Origin: a virus | Virus record (IMG/VR): IMGVR_UViG_3300037193_001157 | Location: 1 to 35,769 of that record | Strand: one strand, 5' to 3' | DNA length: 35,769 bases | In this document: in pieces, positions 2,563 to 25,014 of the stretch | Position numbering within the stretch: position 1 is the first letter of the stretch | How the letters are laid out: each line of letters starts with the position of its first letter | Made by a program: the position numbers and the translations under genes | The notes under the pieces: model-generated | Told to the model about the DNA's origin: nothing | The model's database searches: none | The model's input: only the letters and a program-made list of their open reading frames with translations

Positions 2563-5500
2563 GTGGCCGACGACATCAACCTGCCGAACCTGGTGTCGCA
2601 TCTGGCGGTCAACCTCGACGGGTTGCAGGGCACGGTCGCCGACGCCTCACGGCAGGGCTCCAGCGTCGGCGCCGCGCTCGGCGGTGGCATCCAGCGGCAG
2701 CTTCGGGACCTGCTCGCGAACCTGCCAGAGGTGCAGGTCGACGCGAACAGCGACCAAGCCGACCGCGACTTGGCCCGCCTGCGCGAGCAGCTCCAGGGCC
2801 TCGCCGACGAGCGGATCGGCGTGGACGTCTCGATCGACGAGGCGCTACGCCGCATCAACCAGCTCACCCCGCACCTTCAGCGGCTCTCGGGTGAACACCC
2901 CGAGATCAACGTGCAGGCCGCCACCCGGCAGGCCGCCCGGCAGCTGGACGAACTCCTCGCCGCAGCCCGCCGCGTCGACGACACGGACGTCGATATCGAC
3001 GTGGACGTGGACACCGACCGGCCCCAGCGACTCACCGGAATCATCGGCCGCCTCGGCTCGGTCGCCGGGAGCGCGGCGGGTGCGCTCGCCGGGGTGGGGA
3101 AGGCGGCGGCCGGGATCGGCGCGGCCGTGCCCCTCGCGGCTGGCCTCGTGCAGACCCTCGCGAACGTTGCCCCGGCTGCGGGTGTGGCGGTCACGGGTAT
3201 GGCTGCGATGCAGCTGGCGTCCGGCACGGTCAAGCTCGCGGCCGTCGGCATGGACGACGCCCTGTCGGCCGCGCTGGACCCCTCCAAGGCCGAGGAGTTC
3301 AACGAGGCGCTGAAGAAGCTGAGCCCGGCGGCCCGCGAGGTCGCGACGGCTGTGCGGGACATGAGCCCGGCTCTGCGCGACCTTCAGCAGTCCGTGCAGC
3401 AGGAAGTGTTCCGCGGCCTGGCGGACAACTTGGAACGCACCGCGAAGTCCGTGCTGCCGGTGCTGCGTACGAACCTCCTCAACTCGGCGACCGCGCTCGG
3501 CGACATGGCGGCCGGCGCGCTCGGTGCGGCCAAGGAGTTGGCGGACTCCGGGACGCTGGGGCAGGCCCTCGGCTCAGCGAGCACGGGCCTGCGGAACCTG
3601 TCCGGCCTGCCCGGCATGGTCGTCACCGCGCTCGGTCAAGTTGCTGCGGCGGCTGGCCCGTCGTTCGAGCGGCTGACCGCGGCGGCGGCGCACTCGGCGA
3701 ACGCGATTGGTGAGCGGATCGGCAAGGCGTTCGAGTCCGGCGCGATGGAAGACGCCATTGAGACGGCGATCGACCTGATCGGCGACCTGATGGAAGTGGG
3801 CGCCAACGTCGGGAGGATCATCGGCGGGATCTTCAACGCGGTGCCGGCCGGTGGCGGCGGGCTCGTCGGGACGCTTCAGCAGGTCACCGGAGCAATCGCC
3901 GACATCGTGAACACCGAGGGCGTGCAATCCGGGCTGCGCTCCCTGTTCGAGACGATGGGCACGATCGGCACCACCGTGGCTCCGCTGCTCGGCTCCGCCC
4001 TCAGCGCGGTCGCCCCCGTGTTCACGGCCCTCGGCCCGCCGATCCAGACGCTCGTGACGACCCTGGGCGGCGCCCTCCAGCCGATCATCGTGGCGCTCGG
4101 CCCTGTTCTTCAGGCCGTGGCCGGCGCGGTGGGGCAGCTGGTCGTGGCCGTATCGCCGCTGCTCGCCGTGTTCGGCCAGCTGATCACGGCGCTGCTGCCG
4201 GTGGTCATGCCGCTGTTCCAGGCACTACAGCAAGTGTTCGTCGCGCTGGCGCCCGTGCTCCAGCAAGTTGCTGACGCGCTGCTCGGGGCGCTCGCGCCGA
4301 TCCTCGCGCAGATGCCCACCTACGTGCAGCCGTTCGCGGACCTCCTCGCGCAGCTCGCGCAAACGCTGCTGCCGATCCTCGCGGACCTGTTCGTGCAGCT
4401 GGCGCCGAGCCTGGCCACGCTGGGCGCTGCGTTCGGCCAGCTGCTCGCCGCCGCCGCGCCGATCATGGCCGCGTTCGGTCAACTGGTCGTGCTCATCCTG
4501 AACGCCCTGATGCCGATCATCCAACCCCTGATCGGCCTGATCGCCAGCCTGGCCGGGATCCTCGCTGGGCTGCTGGCGGGGACGATCACGAACGTCGTCG
4601 TGCCCGTACTGAAGTTCATCGCCAAGCTGCTGACGGGCGACTTCTCCGGGGCCTGGCAGATGGCTCAGAACGGCGTCGGCAAGGCGGCCTCGTTCATCAG
4701 CGAGAAGGCGTCGGCCATCGGCAAGTGGATCGGCGACGCGGTGGGGAAGGCCGTCGGCTGGCTCCGCGGCATGGGCGCCCGGGCACTGTCCGCGCTGGGT
4801 AACCTCGCGGCGAGCATGGTCACGCCGGCGGTGCGGGCCGGCCAGTCGATGGTGAACGCGATCAACCAGAAGATCTCTGCGGCGATCACGTGGGTGCGCG
4901 GTCTGCCGGGTCGGGCCCGTGCGGCTCTCGGGAGCCTGAACGGCACGCTGGTCGCCGCGGGCAAGTCGTTGATCCAGGGGTTCATCAACGGCATCTCGTC
5001 CATGGTCGGCGCCGTGAAGGGCAAGCTCGGCGAGATCACGGGGAAGCTGACCAGCTGGAAGGGCCCGCCAGCCAAGGACGCCCGGATCCTCACCCCGGCT
5101 GGTCGGCTGCTGATCCAGGGATTCATCCGCGGCATCGACGACTCGACGGCCAAACTGCGGTCGCGGCTGGAGTCCATCACCAAGGCCCTGCCGGCGAACG
5201 TCCGCAACGGGGTGGGTAAGTCGCTGGCCGCCTCGACGCGCGAGTTGCAGAAGCTCGTCACGAAGCGGGACAACGTCTTCAAGGCGCTGGCCAACGTAGA
5301 GAAGAAGATCAAGGATCTCGTCTCGAAGCGGGACAAGGTCCGGGCCGACATCACGAAGGGCATCCTCGACGAGGCCAACATCACCACCGGCCACGCCGAT
5401 GTGAACAGCGTCAGCGCGATCACGGTGGGGCTACAGCAGGCACTCAAGGCGACGAAGGACTTCCAGGCGAACATCGCCAAGTTGCGGAAGGCGGGGCTGC

Positions 5501-12235: not shown

Positions 12236-14200
12236 ATGCCGTTCCCTGCCGGGGTGCAGACCGTCACCTTGACCGGACACCAGACCCTCGCCGACGGCGC
12301 GGGACGTCCGCTGCCGGTGCGGATCCGGCCCGTCCCGACGCGCGTCGTCTCAGCCGAACACGGCGTCGTCGTCGATAACGAACCCGTCGTCGTCAAGCCC
12401 GACAACGCAGGTCAGTGGTCCGTCGAGCTGGTGGCCGTGGACGCCGCCGGGTTCACGCCGACGGGGTGGACGTACCGCGTCGAGACGGGCGACGACGCCC
12501 TGTTCGTGTCGCTGCCCGCCGCGCTCGGCACCGTCGACATCGCCGACCTGATCCCGGCCGGGTACGACGGGGGCGAGTACGTTCTCGTCCAGGGGCCGAA
12601 GGGGGAGCCCGGCAGCAACGCGGACGCCGAGGCGTACACCGATGCCGCGATCGCTACGCACTCCTCGGCTGTGGATCCGCATGGGGACCGGGCGTGGGCG
12701 GACGGGAAGTTCGCGACGGCCCTGGACCTGACCGCGCTCGGCGGCACCGTCAACAACCTGGCCACCTCGGTCAGCTCCCTCGACACGTTCGTGGGTGACT
12801 GCCTGACCCGGGTGCAGAGCATCGAGCAGGGCAATGCGTGGCTCGCCGGGCTGAACATCAACGGCAACGCGCAGATCACTGGACGGCTCACGGCGGCCGG
12901 GTTCGTGCTGCCGCTGCTGCCGCACACGTCCCGGCCCCGGTGGCGGGACGCGTCGAGTGTGCTGACGCTGATGCAGTCGGGGCACGGCTGGACGGCGTCC
13001 GGCTCGGGCGTCGGTTCCAGCAACGCCAACGACACGGGCGCCTTCGTCAAGGGCAGCCAGTCCTTCGCCATGACCACCACGGGCACGGCGGCCGTGGCCA
13101 ACATCCGTAGGTACGGCGCGCCCGCGTTCGACCTCACCGGGAAGGCGCTCAGGCTGACGTTCCGCGTCACCGATGTGTCGCGGATCAACCAGATCAACCT
13201 GCTGGTGGGCTCCTCGACGCTCGCCAACTCCTACAGCTGGCGCGCGTTCACGCACTCCAGCAGCGCGCAGAACCAGATCCAATCCGGCGAGTGGGTGACG
13301 GTCACCCTTCAGTGGTCTGGCGTCCGGTCGCCGACCGGGACGTACACCGTGGGCCCCACCGGCGTGCCCGGCAACACGTCCGGCTTCACCGACATGGCGT
13401 TCCAAGTCGTCGACAAGGGCACCGGAGCGGCCACCGTGCACCTTCAGTCCGTCGAGATCATCGACGGCACGGCGGCCAACTTCCCCGGCGGCGTCGTCTC
13501 GATCACGTTCGATGATTGCTACCGGTCGGTGGACACCCTCGCCCGGGCCGAGATGGACAAGCGCAACATGAGGGGCACGATCTACGCGATCGCGGACGTC
13601 GTCGACACCAGCGCCGTCTACCTGACCAAGGCGCAGATGCGCGCCATGCAGGACTTGTCCGGGTGGGAGATCGCCGGGCACGCCTACTCGGTTGCGAACC
13701 ACAACGCCAAGTACACGACGTTGTCCACGGCGACCGTGCTGGACGAGCTGCGGCTCCTGCGCGCCTGGATGGTCACCAACGGATTCCCGTCGGAGCACTA
13801 CGCGTACCCCGGCGGCTGGTTCGGCCCCACCACCGACGGCGACCCGATCGACCAGTTGGTGGCCCGGACCTTCAGCAGCGGGCGGGGCATCTCCAGCGCG
13901 GACAATGCCGCCGAGACGGTCCCGCCCGGCATGGCCTACCGGATGCGCAGCATCACAGGCATCGGTTCACAGGCGGGCGCTGCCAGCCCGGCGTACCCGG
14001 CGACCATGCTCGCGGCGGGCGGCCCGCTCGATCGGTGCGCGTCGACGGGGTCGTGGCTTCAGCTGACCTTCCACGCGATCACGTCGGGCGCGGCGACCAC
14101 GACGAACGAGTGCAGCCTCGCTGACTTCACCGCGATCATGGACGGGATTCAGGCCCGCGGCATCAAGGTGCGCACCGTCGGCGAGGTGCTCGCGACCTGA
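12236..14200 (+). CDS. Tail fibre with C-terminal polysaccharide deacetylase (NodB-like) domain
   Basis: A protein of 654 residues. Residues 1-115 form a beta-rich attachment domain, followed by a short collagen-like G-P-K-G-E-P-G-S (about 121), helical and coiled segments to about 215, and a beta-sandwich region (about 230-410). The C-terminal 235 residues are NodB-like: S-I-T-F-D-D (D426, D427), G-H-A-Y-S (H482) with a second histidine at H489, Y-A-Y-P-G-G, and T-F-H (H613). Such enzymes remove acetyl groups from surface glycans, so this is probably a receptor-degrading fibre. It lies after the lysis genes, apart from the other tail genes. Spacing of the second metal motif is atypical. Confidence 0.8.
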   Translation: MPFPAGVQTVTLTGHQTLADGAGRPLPVRIRPVPTRVVSAEHGVVVDNEPVVVKPDNAGQWSVELVAVDAAGFTPTGWTYRVETGDDALFVSLPAALGTVDIADLIPAGYDGGEYVLVQGPKGEPGSNADAEAYTDAAIATHSSAVDPHGDRAWADGKFATALDLTALGGTVNNLATSVSSLDTFVGDCLTRVQSIEQGNAWLAGLNINGNAQITGRLTAAGFVLPLLPHTSRPRWRDASSVLTLMQSGHGWTASGSGVGSSNANDTGAFVKGSQSFAMTTTGTAAVANIRRYGAPAFDLTGKALRLTFRVTDVSRINQINLLVGSSTLANSYSWRAFTHSSSAQNQIQSGEWVTVTLQWSGVRSPTGTYTVGPTGVPGNTSGFTDMAFQVVDKGTGAATVHLQSVEIIDGTAANFPGGVVSITFDDCYRSVDTLARAEMDKRNMRGTIYAIADVVDTSAVYLTKAQMRAMQDLSGWEIAGHAYSVANHNAKYTTLSTATVLDELRLLRAWMVTNGFPSEHYAYPGGWFGPTTDGDPIDQLVARTFSSGRGISSADNAAETVPPGMAYRMRSITGIGSQAGAASPAYPATMLAAGGPLDRCASTGSWLQLTFHAITSGAATTTNECSLADFTAIMDGIQARGIKVRTVGEVLAT

Positions 14201-14203
14201 GCC

Positions 14204-14953
14204 TCAGGGCGCCTGCCCGTAGATGGCCACCCACCGGTCACCGCGCATCACGACGTCCGCCGTCTCCACCGCGCGGCCGGTGGCCTGGTCGTAGTAGGTC
14301 CGCTCGACCGCGAGGACCGGCCCGGGCGGCGTCATGCCGAGAGCCTGCGCTTCCTGCCGGGTGGCCATACGGGCACGCACCCTCTCGACCGGGTCCCCAA
14401 CCTCGATGCTCAGCACCCGCATCCGCGCAGCCACCCCGACACCGGCGTACGGCCCGACCTCAGGCAGCGCCACGAGCGATTGCCCGGTCAGGGCGAGCGG
14501 CTCCCACGACTCGGCCAGCTGCACCGGCCGCTCGTCGGCGAGGTACACGTAGCTGGTGTGCATGACGGGCGCGCCGGCCGGGATGCCGAGCCGCGCGGCC
14601 ACCACCTCCGAGGCCTGCTCGGTGGTGGACTCGTGCCGCCACGTGCCCACCGCGCCCTGCTCGGCCGCGCCTTGCGCGAAGGGTGAGTCCTCGGAGCGAC
14701 GGCGGTGCCGGCGAACGAGCAGCTCGGGAGTCTCAGGGCCGCGGACGTAGTGGCCGACGCCGTGCCGCGAGACGACCAGGCCGTCATCGACGAGGGTTTT
14801 GTAGGCCCTGCTCGCGACGCTGTTGCTGCCGCCGTACTGCTGGATCAGCTCGGCGACGGATGGAAGGCGGGCCCCGGGCGCGAGTTCGCCGGTGGTGATG
14901 AGGGCGCGCAGCTCGTCAGCTACGCGCAGGTACAGCGGCGGCTCGGTGCTCAC
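14204..14953 (-). CDS. GntR-family regulator with UTRA domain
   Basis: A leftward protein of 249 residues with a GTG start at 14953 and GGGAGG upstream. Residues 1-75 form a GntR winged helix (Y-L-R-V-A-D-E-L-R-A-L-I, G-A-R-L-P-S-V-A-E-L, then G-x-G-x-Y-V). Residues about 100-249 form a UTRA ligand-binding domain (Y-V-Y-L-A-D-E-R-P-V-Q-L-A-E-S-W-E). GntR/UTRA repressors are common in Streptomyces plasmids and integrative elements (KorSA, TraR types). Two palindromes lie just upstream, between it and the divergent gene at 15052, so it probably represses itself and that operon. It ends three bases from the convergent tail-fibre stop. Confidence 0.85.
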   Translation of the reverse strand: MSTEPPLYLRVADELRALITTGELAPGARLPSVAELIQQYGGSNSVASRAYKTLVDDGLVVSRHGVGHYVRGPETPELLVRRHRRRSEDSPFAQGAAEQGAVGTWRHESTTEQASEVVAARLGIPAGAPVMHTSYVYLADERPVQLAESWEPLALTGQSLVALPEVGPYAGVGVAARMRVLSIEVGDPVERVRARMATRQEAQALGMTPPGPVLAVERTYYDQATGRAVETADVVMRGDRWVAIYGQAP

Positions 14954-14980
14954 TGTCCGCCTCCCTTCCGTGTGACCTGC

Positions 14981-15010
14981 GTGACAGAGTAGTGCTGCTC
15001 TCGCTACTCT
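14981..15010 (+). promoter_or_regulatory. Candidate rightward promoter for the 15052 operon
   Basis: GTGACA (14981-14986) and TACTCT (15005-15010) are separated by 18 bases and resemble -35 and -10 boxes of a housekeeping promoter. The -10 overlaps the first palindrome, so a bound GntR protein would block it. This is pattern matching only. Confidence 0.35.
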
Positions 15011-15039
15011 CGTACGAGAGTCATTCTCTCGCACGAGAG
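14998..15039. promoter_or_regulatory. Tandem palindromic operators (probable GntR sites)
   Basis: ACTCTCGTACGAGAGT (15006-15021) is a perfect 16-base palindrome. CTCTCGCACGAGAG (15026-15039) is a near-identical second copy, centred 19 bases downstream. A lone half-site CTCTCG lies at 14998-15003. Two sites on nearly the same helical face between divergent GntR and 15052 genes are what an autoregulated GntR operator looks like. Confidence 0.7.
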
Positions 15040-16676: not shown

Positions 16677-17651
16677 ATGGCAGATGAGCGATACAACATC
16701 GGGCCCATGGCTGCCTCCTGGCTGCGCGCCCTCAAGTCGCAGAACAAGAGCGACAACACCATCCGTATCTACGGGAATGCGGTGAACTCGTTCGGGCGGT
16801 TCCTGCTCGACCCCGAGGACGGGTACCGGCCCGCCAACGAGGACGGCGCCACCGGCCGGCCCGCGCCCGGCGACCTCGACGAGATCCACCGCGAGCACGT
16901 CGAGGCGTACGTCGCGGCGACGATCGCCCGCACCTCACCGGCGAACGCACATCAGCACTTCCGCGCGCTCAAGACGTTCTTCAACTGGTGTATGGACGAG
17001 GAGGAACTCGACCGCTCCCCCATGCGCACGATGAAGCCGCCGCAGGTGCCCGAGAAGGAGGTGCCCGTCATCGCCGAGGAGGACCTGAAGAAGCTGTTCA
17101 AGGTCTGCAAGGGCAGGGCGTACGCCGACCGTCGAGACACCGCGATCCTGACCCTGTTCCTCGACACCGGTGTGCGGCTGTCCGAGTTGACCGAGCGTCG
17201 GGTCGGCGACCTGGACCTCGACATGATGGTGCTGCGGGTGCTCGGCAAGGGCGACAAGTGGCGCAGCGTTCCGTTCGGCCGGACGTGCGCGAGCGTCCTG
17301 GACCGGTACTTGCGTGCCGCCGCGAAACACAAGGGGCGTCCACTGGAAGAGGACATGTGGCTGTGGTGGGGCGACCAAGCCGCGCACCGCGGCCACCGGC
17401 TGACCATCTGGGGCGTCGGGCAGATGCTCAAGCGGCGGTGCGCCGAGGCCGGGATCGACGAGCTGCACCCGCACCAGTTCCGCCACACCTTCGCCCACCT
17501 GTGGAAGGTGAACGGCGGGAACGAGGACGATCTGATGCGCATCACGGGCTGGCGGTCGCGGCAGATGCTGTCCCGCTATGCGGCGTCCGCCGGAGCGGAG
17601 CGTGCCCGGTCGGCGCATGCTCGGCTGTCGCCGGCTGATCGGCTCGGCTGA
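16677..17651 (+). CDS. int: Tyrosine site-specific recombinase (phage integrase)
   Basis: A protein of 324 residues, typical for the XerD-like integrases. The N-terminal SAM-like core-binding domain covers about residues 10-115. The catalytic domain shows the full set: R167 (T-G-V-R-L-S-E-L), K191 (G-K-G-D-K-W), H266 and R269 (H-Q-F-R-H-T-F), W292 (T-G-W-R) and nucleophile Y301 (L-S-R-Y). It would recombine the adjacent attP with a host tRNA gene. The gene reads away from the core, so after integration it remains next to the attachment junction. It lacks a clear ribosome-binding site, consistent with a leaderless mRNA. Confidence 0.95.
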   Translation: MADERYNIGPMAASWLRALKSQNKSDNTIRIYGNAVNSFGRFLLDPEDGYRPANEDGATGRPAPGDLDEIHREHVEAYVAATIARTSPANAHQHFRALKTFFNWCMDEEELDRSPMRTMKPPQVPEKEVPVIAEEDLKKLFKVCKGRAYADRRDTAILTLFLDTGVRLSELTERRVGDLDLDMMVLRVLGKGDKWRSVPFGRTCASVLDRYLRAAAKHKGRPLEEDMWLWWGDQAAHRGHRLTIWGVGQMLKRRCAEAGIDELHPHQFRHTFAHLWKVNGGNEDDLMRITGWRSRQMLSRYAASAGAERARSAHARLSPADRLG

Positions 17652-20950: not shown

Positions 20951-21432
20951 ACGCCCGCAAGCTTCTCACCCTCATGGTCCGAACGGACCGCGGCAGCATG
21001 ACCGTTTGGTCGCCGTCCGAGGTGAGTGACGCCCTCGACGCCTTCCACGCCGAGGTGACCGCCGAGCGCGACGCCATGACCGTGGCGTGGCTGGTGAAGA
21101 AGGCCCGCGAGTTCCGGGCCATGGGCGGCCGGATGCGCGCCGCGCAGGCCGACGCCGTCGCCGCGATGGCCTCGAAGATCGAGCGCGGCGCCGTCCGCCC
21201 GAACAACCTGCGGACGCTCCCCGCCGACTTCTTCGAGCCCGGCCACACCTACCGCGCCCACTTCTACGGGGGCCCGCTCACCGTCGACTACGTCGGCACG
21301 CACCCCGCCACCGGCGAGCGCTACGCCCACGGCTGGGTGCACTACGAGGACAACGACTCGTGGGCGCCGAACGTGGTCAGCGGCGGCCTGTTCGAGCACT
21401 TCACCGACATCACCGAACGAGGTGACGCCTGA
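20947..21432 (+). CDS. Hypothetical early protein
   Basis: A protein of 161 residues from the GTG of a GTGA overlap. Residues 1-90 are helical and charged (A-F-H-A-E-V-T-A-E-R-D-A, V-K-K-A-R-E-F-R-A-M-G-G-R-M-R); residues 95-161 look like a compact beta domain (H-T-Y-R-A-H-F-Y-G-G-P-L-T-V-D-Y-V-G-T, G-W-V-H-Y-E-D-N-D). It stands just before the exonuclease gene and shares a TGATG overlap with it. I do not recognise the family. Confidence 0.6.
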   Translation: MNARKLLTLMVRTDRGSMTVWSPSEVSDALDAFHAEVTAERDAMTVAWLVKKAREFRAMGGRMRAAQADAVAAMASKIERGAVRPNNLRTLPADFFEPGHTYRAHFYGGPLTVDYVGTHPATGERYAHGWVHYEDNDSWAPNVVSGGLFEHFTDITERGDA

Positions 21433-22322
21433 TGACGACCGTCGTGCAGGCCGGGGCTCAGGCCCCGGCCGCCGGCCCGGAACCCATCGCCGAGCCCGGC
21501 ATCTACGAGATGACGAACGAGGTCTACCACTCCCACCGGTACGCCCTGTCGTCCAGCGGCGCGCGTGACCTGCTGGACCCGTCCTGCCCCGCGATCTTCC
21601 GCTACAAGCAGGACCACCCGCAGCCGCCGAAGAAGACGTTCGACATCGGCAACGCCGCGCACAAGCTCGTCCTCGGCAACGGGCCGAAGCTCCGCCGGAT
21701 CGAGCACGAGACCTGGAACACCAACGTGGCGAAGGCCGCGGTGCGCGAGGCCCGCGAGGCTGGCGAGATCCCGCTGAAGCCCGCCGAGTGGGAGCAGGTG
21801 CACGACATGGCGGACGCCCTGCGCCGTCACCCCGTCGCCTCCCTGCTGTTCGACCCCGAGCGCGGCACCCCGGAACGGTCCCTGTTCTGGCGCGACGACC
21901 GTACGGGCGTCATGCGTCGGGCCCGGCTGGACTGGTTGCCGAACCCGCGGTCCGGGCGGCTGATCATCCCCGACTACAAGACGTGCGTCTCCGCCCACCC
22001 CGAGAAGCTCCAGCGGGCCGTGGACGACTTCGGCTACCACCAGCAAGACGACTGGTACCGGTCCGCCTGCCACGCCCTCGGCATCGCCGACGAGACCGCT
22101 GCGTTCGTGTTCGTCTGCCAGGAGAAGCAGGCCCCGTACGTGATCACCGTGATCGAGGTGAACGCGACGTCCCGGCGGATCGGTGCCGCCCGCAACCGGC
22201 GCGCCCTGGAGCGCTTCGCCGAGTGCACCCGAACCGGCTACTGGCCCGGCTACAGCGACGAGATCGCCCCCGTTTCCCTGCCCCCGTGGGCCGAGACCCG
22301 TGACTCCCTGGAGTACCTGTGA
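21432..22322 (+). CDS. PD-(D/E)XK exonuclease (RecE/RecB-like)
   Basis: A protein of 296 residues. Motifs of the phage exonuclease / RecB-nuclease superfamily are in order: N-A-A-H-K-L (H77), R-L-D-W-L (D167), D-Y-K-T (D181, K183) and the Gln/Tyr motif Y-H-Q-Q-D-D-W-Y. The N terminus I-Y-E-M-T-N-E-V-Y-H is typical of phage RecE-type exonucleases. It would resect double-stranded DNA ends to give 3' single strands for the annealing protein encoded next (overlap GTGA), forming a Red/RecET-like recombination pair. Confidence 0.85.
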   Translation: MTTVVQAGAQAPAAGPEPIAEPGIYEMTNEVYHSHRYALSSSGARDLLDPSCPAIFRYKQDHPQPPKKTFDIGNAAHKLVLGNGPKLRRIEHETWNTNVAKAAVREAREAGEIPLKPAEWEQVHDMADALRRHPVASLLFDPERGTPERSLFWRDDRTGVMRRARLDWLPNPRSGRLIIPDYKTCVSAHPEKLQRAVDDFGYHQQDDWYRSACHALGIADETAAFVFVCQEKQAPYVITVIEVNATSRRIGAARNRRALERFAECTRTGYWPGYSDEIAPVSLPPWAETRDSLEYL

Positions 22323-23248: not shown

Positions 23249-23454
23249 ACGCCCGCCGCTGCTTGCGCCAGCTGATCCGCCCGACCGGCCGTCACCGCGC
23301 CCCGCGCGCCATCGAGATGCTCCGCCCGGCCGAGGTCAACGACCTGGCGCACTGCCCCGCCTGCAAGCGGGACACGATGCACGCCTTCCAGGGCCCCACC
23401 CGCACGTGCTTCGACTGCCGCACCGAGACGCCCACGGCGGTGCCCCGTGGCTGA
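23245..23454 (+). CDS. Small zinc-ribbon protein
   Basis: A protein of 69 residues from the GTG of a GTGA overlap. An Arg-rich N terminus precedes C-P-A-C-K-R-D and C-F-D-C-R-T, two C-x2-C pairs 18 residues apart that should form a zinc ribbon. It sits in the recombination module between the annealing protein and the RusA-like resolvase and may bind DNA or a partner; this is inference. Confidence 0.6.
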   Translation: MNARRCLRQLIRPTGRHRAPRAIEMLRPAEVNDLAHCPACKRDTMHAFQGPTRTCFDCRTETPTAVPRG

Positions 23455-23938
23455 CCTCACCCTGTTCACCCCCGAGGCTCCGGCCGCCACCACGGCGGCC
23501 GGGCCACGGCCCTACGTCATCGCCCTGCCCGCCGGGCTGCGGCTGCTGAACGCGAACCAGCGGGTTCACTACCGGCAGCGGGCGGAACGCACGGACAAGC
23601 TGCGCAGCGCCGCGCACGAGGCCGTCACCGAGTGCCCGAGCCTCATGGACGCGCTCGCCGCCGCCAAGCCGGGAGTCCTCTTCCAGCGAGCGCACATCCT
23701 CGGCGTGCTGCACCCCGACCGCAACGTCCGGTGCGACCCCGCGAACTGGTACCCGTCCTTCAAGGCCGCTGTGGACGGACTAGTCGACGCCGGCCTGTTC
23801 GAGGACGACGACCACACCCGCGTGCTCGGCCCGGACATGCGCCTCGGCCAGAAGCGGAAGAGTGGGCAACTCGTCCTCGTCGTCCGCGGCCTGGCCCCCG
23901 ACGAGGACCCCCTCAGCTTCGGGGCGGTGGGGCGATGA
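23447..23938 (+). CDS. RusA-like Holliday junction resolvase
   Basis: A protein of 163 residues. The RusA pattern is visible: L-N-A-N-Q-R-V-H-Y-R-Q-R near the start, then D-P-A-N-W-Y-P-S-F-K (D97, N100, K106), D110, and G-L-F-E-D-D-D-H near 117-123. The family uses a cluster of Asp residues to cleave four-way junctions. In E. coli RusA the motif is D-x-D-N; here the second Asp is Ala99, so activity may rely on neighbouring acidic residues. It completes a recombination module with the exonuclease and annealing protein. Confidence 0.75.
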   Translation: MADLTLFTPEAPAATTAAGPRPYVIALPAGLRLLNANQRVHYRQRAERTDKLRSAAHEAVTECPSLMDALAAAKPGVLFQRAHILGVLHPDRNVRCDPANWYPSFKAAVDGLVDAGLFEDDDHTRVLGPDMRLGQKRKSGQLVLVVRGLAPDEDPLSFGAVGR

Positions 23939-25014
23939 CGCTCCGGATCGGCTCCGTGTGCACCGGCTACGGCGGTCTCGACATGGCCGTACGGCAGGTG
24001 TTCGGCGGCGAACTCGCGTGGGTGTCCGACATCGACCCGGGCGCCTGCCAGATCATCGCCCACCGCCACCCGGCCGTGCCGAACATCGGCGACCTCACCA
24101 CCGCCCGGTGGGAGGACGTCGAGCCCGTCGACATCCTCTGCGGCGGCTACCCCTGCCAGCCCTTCTCCAGCGCCGGCCTCCGGAAAGGAACGGACGATGC
24201 CCGGCACATCTGGCCGTACATCGCGAACGCCCTTTGCGTACTACGACCCCGAGTCGCAGTCTTTGAGAACGTCGCAGGGCACCTTCGACTGGGATTCGAC
24301 GCCGTCCTCGCCGACCTTGCCCGCCTCGGGTTCGATGCGGAGTGGTGCCTTGTACGCGCGTCGGAGGTCGGCGCTCCCCACCAGCGAGCCCGCCTCTTCC
24401 TCTACGCCCGGGCTGCCGACACCCCGAGCCCGGGACTCCCGGGGACGGGGCTACGAGGACGGGCTACCGAACGTGGTGCAGCTGCTGCCAACACCGACCG
24501 CGTCGGAAGCGACGGGTCCTGGGCATGCAGCCGAGGGCGGAATGAACCTGCGGCATGTCGTGTCGCTGATGCCGACGCCGACGGTTGCCGACTCACGGGA
24601 CACGGCGAACTTCAGACCGGACGGGACACCGTACGGCAGCGGCAATGGCATGACGCTCACGGACGCCAGTCGGCTCCTGCTGCCGACGCCGACCGCCTCG
24701 GACGGGGAGCGGGAGAGCACGACCTTCGGCCGGGGCAACCCAACCTTGCGTGGGGCCGTTTCCTCCCCGCCATCCAACGGTGGGAAGACGTCACCGGACG
24801 ACGTGCCCCCCGGGCAACTGACGATCGCAATCGGCTGAGCCCCGTGTTCGTCGAATGGATGATGGGTCTGACCGCTGGCCATGTCACTGCCGTCCCCGGG
24901 CTCACCCGCACACAGCAGCTCAAGGCCCTCGGGAACGGCGTCGTTCCCCAGCAGGCCGCCGCCGCGCTCCGGCTGCTCGCCGCCCGCGCTGGCGTGTTGG
25001 AGCCCGCCGCATGA
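23935..25014 (+). CDS. C5 cytosine-specific DNA methyltransferase
   Basis: A protein of 359 residues. The C5-MTase motifs appear in order: motif I S-V-C-T-G-Y-G-G-L-D, motif IV G-G-Y-P-C-Q-P-F-S with catalytic C74, motif VI V-F-E-N-V-A-G, motif VIII H-Q-R-A-R-L-F, and motif X A-L-G-N-G-V-V-P. The region between VIII and X, where the target-recognition domain should be, is low complexity with repeated A-D-A-D or N-T-D-R units; there a second frame is open (next entry). It would methylate phage DNA, probably against host restriction. It overlaps RusA (ATGA) and the following gene. Confidence 0.85.
   Translation: MTLRIGSVCTGYGGLDMAVRQVFGGELAWVSDIDPGACQIIAHRHPAVPNIGDLTTARWEDVEPVDILCGGYPCQPFSSAGLRKGTDDARHIWPYIANALCVLRPRVAVFENVAGHLRLGFDAVLADLARLGFDAEWCLVRASEVGAPHQRARLFLYARAADTPSPGLPGTGLRGRATERGAAAANTDRVGSDGSWACSRGRNEPAACRVADADADGCRLTGHGELQTGRDTVRQRQWHDAHGRQSAPAADADRLGRGAGEHDLRPGQPNLAWGRFLPAIQRWEDVTGRRAPRATDDRNRLSPVFVEWMMGLTAGHVTAVPGLTRTQQLKALGNGVVPQQAAAALRLLAARAGVLEPAA
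24197..24838 (+). CDS. Nested overlapping ORF with repeated LPTPTA motif (possible second product)
   Basis: A 213-residue frame lies wholly inside the methyltransferase gene, shifted by one base. Its ATG is seven bases after AAAGGA (24184-24189), an ideal site. It reads S-L-R-T-S-Q-G-T-F-D-W, then L-P-T-P-R-A-R-D (about 73), L-P-T-P-T-A-S-E (97), M-P-T-P-T-V-A-D (125) and L-P-T-P-T-A-S-D (162). I recall similar LPTPTA-repeat proteins beside phage cytosine methyltransferases, but cannot verify this here. It may be a genuine dual-coding gene, or the frame of an ancestral gene from which the methyltransferase middle was derived. It may also be only a GC-driven open frame. Confidence 0.4.
   Translation: MPGTSGRTSRTPFAYYDPESQSLRTSQGTFDWDSTPSSPTLPASGSMRSGALYARRRSALPTSEPASSSTPGLPTPRARDSRGRGYEDGLPNVVQLLPTPTASEATGPGHAAEGGMNLRHVVSLMPTPTVADSRDTANFRPDGTPYGSGNGMTLTDASRLLLPTPTASDGERESTTFGRGNPTLRGAVSSPPSNGGKTSPDDVPPGQLTIAIG

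Follow-up and report, generated by a model that had tools for sequence, protein, structure and literature searches.

When a long reading frame lies nested inside a GC-rich cytosine methyltransferase gene, does it encode a second protein, or is it only the shadow that the gene casts in another frame? This question is raised by a 35.8 kb viral contig of 71% GC (IMG/VR record IMGVR_UViG_3300037193_001157, positions 1 to 35,769), referred to below as the window, which is the whole stretch of DNA that was analysed. As it carries tail genes as well as an integrase, the contig appears to be a temperate phage or prophage. The methyltransferase ORF (alpha), joined to an upstream ORF (23447-23938) by an ATGA overlap, and the frame nested within it (beta) are arranged as follows, with the basis for each in brackets.

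23935-25014, plus strand: alpha, C5-cytosine DNA methyltransferase ORF, 359 aa (PF00145, phrog_363)
24184-24189, plus strand: AAAGGA, likely ribosome-binding site of beta, ending seven bases 5' of its ATG (sequence)
24197-24838, plus strand: beta, nested ORF with an ATG start, 213 aa, in the +1 frame of alpha (phrog_1008, tblastn, constraint tests)

Alpha matches PF00145 over residues 4-162, which hold motifs I-VIII (5.7e-30), and phrog_363 (9e-65). PCQ (motif IV), ENV (motif VI) and QRAR are visible in it, motif VIII is present, and the closing motifs IX and X of a C5-methyltransferase follow in the same frame at 24751-25011, after a read-through shadow. Beta consists of an N-terminal domain, four LPTP modules and a shadow tail. 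Its LPTP or MPTP units begin at 24413, 24485, 24569 and 24680, and in the alpha frame the repeat bases read AADTP, NTDR, VADADADG and AADADR. A first-pass annotation had described the 213-codon frame with its ATG and an AAAGGA seven bases before it, the four L/M-P-T-P units and the A-D-A-D or N-T-D-R reading of the same bases in the methyltransferase frame, all of which are found in the sequence.

The length of the beta frame was dropped as evidence. The window holds 83 open runs of at least 213 codons, and a +1 run of that length is open in 22% of permutations of the alpha synonymous codons (ATG-started in 4%). Since such a length is unremarkable at 71% GC, the question turns on conservation.

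Searches of Pfam and NCBIfam returned no match to beta, and a sequence search of the PDB found no solved-structure relative. Phrog_1008 matches beta through profile positions 64-211 (1.5e-25), while positions 226-319 of the same profile match the alpha frame at motifs IX-X; a single viral protein family is therefore spread over both frames here. Matches to this profile were also obtained in relatives (L044, 4e-64; L156, 8e-74; L123, 8e-24). By tblastn, 51 actinophage records were retrieved with the window beta and 570 records with the beta of phage Samy. In several phage records, a second gene annotated 'DNA methylase' or methyltransferase corresponds to beta and is placed after or overlaps the first, and in the Paenibacillus phages Lily and Leyra the annotated gene lies wholly within the cytosine methyltransferase (the Lily record adds 'g62 internal gene'). 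Judged by codon use at the site, the beta start codon is conserved among relatives: GAT, which creates the beta ATG, occurs in 21 of the 23 loci with the local motif, compared with 66 of 277 Asp codons overall, and most relatives have GGA at the Gly codon that corresponds to the ribosome-binding site. A start within the ENV motif was rejected as a general rule, as many loci have an intervening stop before the beta frame, and the rule was not used for the window. These comparisons suggest that beta is very probably a real, translated gene.

To place the locus in a wider context, 17 genome loci, 88 viral contig loci and 8 phage loci were gathered, and alpha motifs I-VIII, the beta N-terminus and motifs IX-X were mapped in each. 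Among the 110 loci with all three parts, 107 have the beta N-terminus overlapping alpha motifs VI-VIII in the +1 frame over about 200 bases, at GC contents of 0.40-0.75. Two layouts dominate. The split type (48 loci, among them nearly every locus below 0.55 GC) has an alpha that ends shortly after motif VIII and a beta that carries the modules and motifs IX-X, the beta frame being open well upstream of the alpha stop. In the window-like type (56 loci), motifs IX-X are in the alpha frame. Some of these (L016, L060 and L077) are one-chain relatives with the LPTP modules in the alpha frame, so that a single chain runs through I-VIII, modules and IX-X, and most one-chain relatives still keep the beta N-terminal domain in trans. 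In more distant relatives (L123, L155, L156, L157 and L161), alpha holds motifs I-VIII and X and beta holds motif IX. These come from a Bacteroidota bin at GC 0.30, from Paenibacillus and Lacticaseibacillus phages at 0.43-0.46 and from Shinella at 0.59. Across this collection, sequence comparison indicates that the same-strand overlap is conserved from 30% to 75% GC and recurs in phages of very different bacteria. The suggestion that this is a conserved dual-coding locus beside or inside phage methyltransferases is borne out by the phrog_1008 match and by some 100 relatives with the same +1 overlap, and the beta frame is kept in genomes down to 30-50% GC rather than only as a shadow of GC-rich genes.

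Several loci depart from these layouts. In three of the overlapping loci, L051, L073 and L101, motifs IX-X (~3563-3952) lie in a third frame that is neither alpha nor beta, which may represent a three-ORF version of the locus. In L086, L067, L081 and L050, the modules are divided between the chains, some in the beta frame and later ones in the alpha frame. The Bifidobacterium loci L033 and L034 have a segment resembling the beta N-terminus after motif VIII (2757-2891; E ~1e-4), in the same frame and without overlap, with IX-X in another frame, apparently an unpacked form. L006 (Mycobacterium phage Jarcob) has a frame break within the overlap (2636-2660) and reads the beta N-terminus, then motif VIII, then modules in changing frames; this could reflect decay, an error in sequencing or an ongoing switch, and the locus was left out of the structure alignments. 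In Leucobacter luti (G013), a single genome carries the alpha/beta locus at least three times (L144/L152/L153, L145 and L149/L154).

Constraint on the two frames divides the window locus into four stretches.

24197-24420, plus strand: stretch coding in both frames, for alpha motifs VI-VIII and the N-terminal domain of beta (cross-GC codon-permutation test)
24421-24750, plus strand: module region, beta frame selected and alpha an A-D-A-D shadow (mismatch rates)
24751-24838, plus strand: C-terminal tail of beta, apparently a shadow cast by alpha around motif IX (mismatch 0.197/0.172/0.297, alpha third position fastest)
24751-25011, plus strand: motifs IX-X, WGRFLPAIQRWE, LSPVFVEWMMGLTAGHVT and LKALGNGVVPQQ (alpha frame selected)

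To assess dual coding in the overlap, the alpha synonymous codons were permuted 300 times and each +1 product was scored against a profile made from the opposite GC class of loci. No permutation scored as high as the real beta N-terminus in 37/37 loci of low GC and 62/66 of high GC (99/103), with a mild bias in that the loci tested needed a beta N-terminal match, which nearly all loci have. For the window, the first ~75 residues of beta scored 50.3 bits against 13.5 +- 6.2 after permutation (0/300), with a profile made only from loci below 55% GC. The median z was 5.2 in the overlap and 0.35 in alpha upstream of it, and in this upstream control stretch no locus went beyond all permutations. 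A signal is also obtained in the +2 frame of the overlap (z 3.4), an expected by-product of fixed alpha third positions, so that the permutation test alone does not perfectly single out +1. The clearest failures, L039 and L017, are both one-chain types and are to be expected, because such loci may no longer need beta. Open runs of 131-249 codons are seen for beta in AT-rich relatives, and 0-2 of 500 permutations are open that far. Ordinary C5-methyltransferases of the same genomes, too distant to be a strong control, had no beta N-terminus in the +1 frame. By these measures, the beta frame in the overlap is conserved far beyond the needs of the alpha protein and its codon usage.

A different picture emerges downstream. 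Mismatch rates were taken from ungapped nucleotide matches between the window and its relatives; codon-position counts on module pairs chosen by similarity in the LPTP frame had been tried and were set aside as biased by that choice. At alpha codon positions 1/2/3, mismatch was 0.286/0.243/0.379 before the overlap, 0.263/0.187/0.362 within it and 0.198/0.173/0.417 in the motifs IX-X region. In the module region, the values were 0.377/0.236/0.186, the fastest position being the third position of beta. The same region gave 0.393/0.202/0.163 across 33 window-type loci, and the pattern is repeated in 46 split loci and reversed in one-chain loci. Because the silent position of the module region is that of beta, the annotated alpha frame there is a shadow; as judged from these rates, selection between 24421 and 24750 is on the beta frame alone and the methyltransferase frame is passive. 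The idea that two proteins share the bases therefore holds only for about 24197-24420 and fails at 24421-24750, and the alternative offered with it, a methyltransferase variable region that arose by overprinting, does not stand. Codon-level selection, which had been named as a check on both frames, is found on both in the overlap, on beta only in the modules and on alpha in IX-X. The modules themselves, mostly 24-45 residues long, sort into recognisable types, vary in order and are found between loci in the alpha, beta or third frame.

In one-chain relatives, the modules sit between motifs VIII and IX, in keeping with the earlier placing of the repeats in the target-recognition position. Structure prediction, with alignments made without the phage-collection sequences, agrees with a methyltransferase core. 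For the one-chain L016, motifs I-VIII and IX-X reached pLDDT ~95 and the modules ~40; the model matched M.HhaI (Foldseek, 4.9e-15), on which both halves superpose (Z 24.2, rmsd ~4, ~258 residues). For a split-type beta, AF2 gave an N-terminal beta-strand domain of ~50 residues (pLDDT ~90), a IX-X part (pLDDT ~90) and low-confidence modules. Foldseek returned only weak matches to this model (E >=0.8), of which nearly all among those listed were DNMT3-type C5-methyltransferases, and VIA gave Z <=3.0 for residues 172-253 only; the IX-X part of beta thus weakly resembles C5-methyltransferases in the predicted model. Neither Foldseek nor VIA found a fold match for the N-terminal domain.

Computation yields two conserved frames with defined limits, a conserved start and homology to one-chain forms, and these are likely explained by a two-polypeptide C5-cytosine DNA methyltransferase encoded in overlapping frames, with alpha and beta as its subunits. 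Alpha would contribute the AdoMet-binding and catalytic motifs I-VIII and, beyond a read-through linker that is not under selection, motifs IX-X. Beta, translated from its own ATG inside alpha (24197), would supply a small beta-strand domain and an array of exchangeable LPTP modules, which would together fill the recognition side, i.e. the target-recognition position of the one-chain relatives. By analogy, the two chains would most likely assemble like the subunits of M.AquI and M.EcoHK31I, and the assembled enzyme would methylate phage DNA. Methylation can shield phage DNA from host restriction, and such protection may be the benefit here. As AF2 confidence for the modules is low, their recognition role is argued from position, from which they probably help to choose the DNA target. 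The retention of the beta N-terminal domain in trans by most one-chain relatives is only partly accounted for by this scheme. A bolder extension, which we regard as doubtful, is that the LPTP modules are combinatorial DNA-recognition units reshuffled by phages, with indels shifting them between frames and polypeptides and frame switching re-targeting methylation. When a separate target per repeat was examined, the modules were found to be common to, and reordered between, loci, and their AF2 confidence was low.

The changes of selected frame at both borders could instead reflect a single chain made by two programmed frameshifts, one into the beta frame near 24420 and one returning to alpha near 24750, which would line up I-VIII, modules and IX-X like the one-chain relatives, with no separate beta protein. 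In favour of this, one-chain relatives with in-frame modules exist, and beta almost invariably occupies the +1 frame relative to alpha. However, the beta N-terminal domain and its ATG lie upstream of any shift and are strongly conserved; double frameshifting is less likely because it would not require this conservation. The window type would also need two shifts, and split loci have the beta frame open well before the alpha stop. This explanation is therefore considered unlikely. A still slimmer chance is given to beta as a separate protein with its own function, e.g. a methylation regulator or anti-restriction factor, that merely overlaps the methyltransferase. Its own start and domain, and the lack of a solved-structure relative by sequence, would fit such a role, but in 48 loci it is beta that holds the enzyme motifs IX-X, alpha being without them there, and modules are also found within the alpha chain. 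Most likely, beta is the missing part of the enzyme itself rather than a second protein of unrelated role. It is highly improbable that the nested frame is a chance shadow cast by a GC-rich gene: open shadow frames are common at this GC content, but beta is conserved in 30-54% GC genomes, and within the repeats the shadow is the methyltransferase frame.

The two-subunit enzyme favoured here has precedents. Lee, Kam and Shaw reportedly found in 1995 that the small subunit of M.EcoHK31I is encoded within the large-subunit gene in an alternative reading frame, a layout that the window shares computationally. Known two-polypeptide C5-methyltransferases include M.AquI (CYCGRG, split) and M.EcoHK31I (YGGCCR), the latter with I-VIII and X in the large polypeptide, IX in the small one and a predicted recognition domain in the large subunit (PMC3404938). 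The window has motif IX in alpha, and its beta holds only the N-terminal domain and modules. Because motif IX in beta is a defining M.EcoHK31I feature, the window is a variant of this type, whereas L123, L155, L156, L157 and L161 share the original layout. The M.AquI-type layout, in which alpha ends after VIII and beta carries IX-X, fits 48 relatives but not the window, where alpha runs through IX-X; PMC3404938 describes no dual-coding overlap of ~200 bases for M.AquI. PHROG 1008, whose members in Samy, Upyo, Camperdownii, Lily and Leyra are annotated as genes that nest in or follow the methyltransferase gene, is labelled 'DNA methyltransferase', yet its split-type and nested members here are without catalytic motifs I-VIII, and the label makes no mention of an out-of-frame overlap. 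The C5-methyltransferases of Bacillus phages SPbeta and phi3T carry tandem exchangeable recognition units between VIII and IX, in one chain and as ordered domains. The likeness lies in several exchangeable units in tandem, whereas the modules here have low AF2 confidence and are mostly in a second polypeptide. A search of the open literature, short of a full one, found no published description of the nested arrangement in phages, nor of its breadth, frame switching or module shuffling.

These findings indicate that standard annotation of a common phage methyltransferase misses or splits one protein of the pair. The annotated gene is a meaningless shadow where the recognition part belongs, and specificity predictions from such genes would be wrong. 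The locus is also a good natural model for dual coding, its long overlap on the same strand being conserved between 30% and 75% GC, and it would offer exchangeable targeting parts if the modules read DNA.

Elsewhere in the window, a PDDEXK-type protein (21432-22322) is encoded upstream of the alpha gene. Further upstream, a 654-aa protein with a polysaccharide deacetylase domain (12236-14200; 5.1e-9) is adjoined by a GntR/UTRA regulator on the opposite strand (14204-15034), after which comes the integrase (16677-17651).
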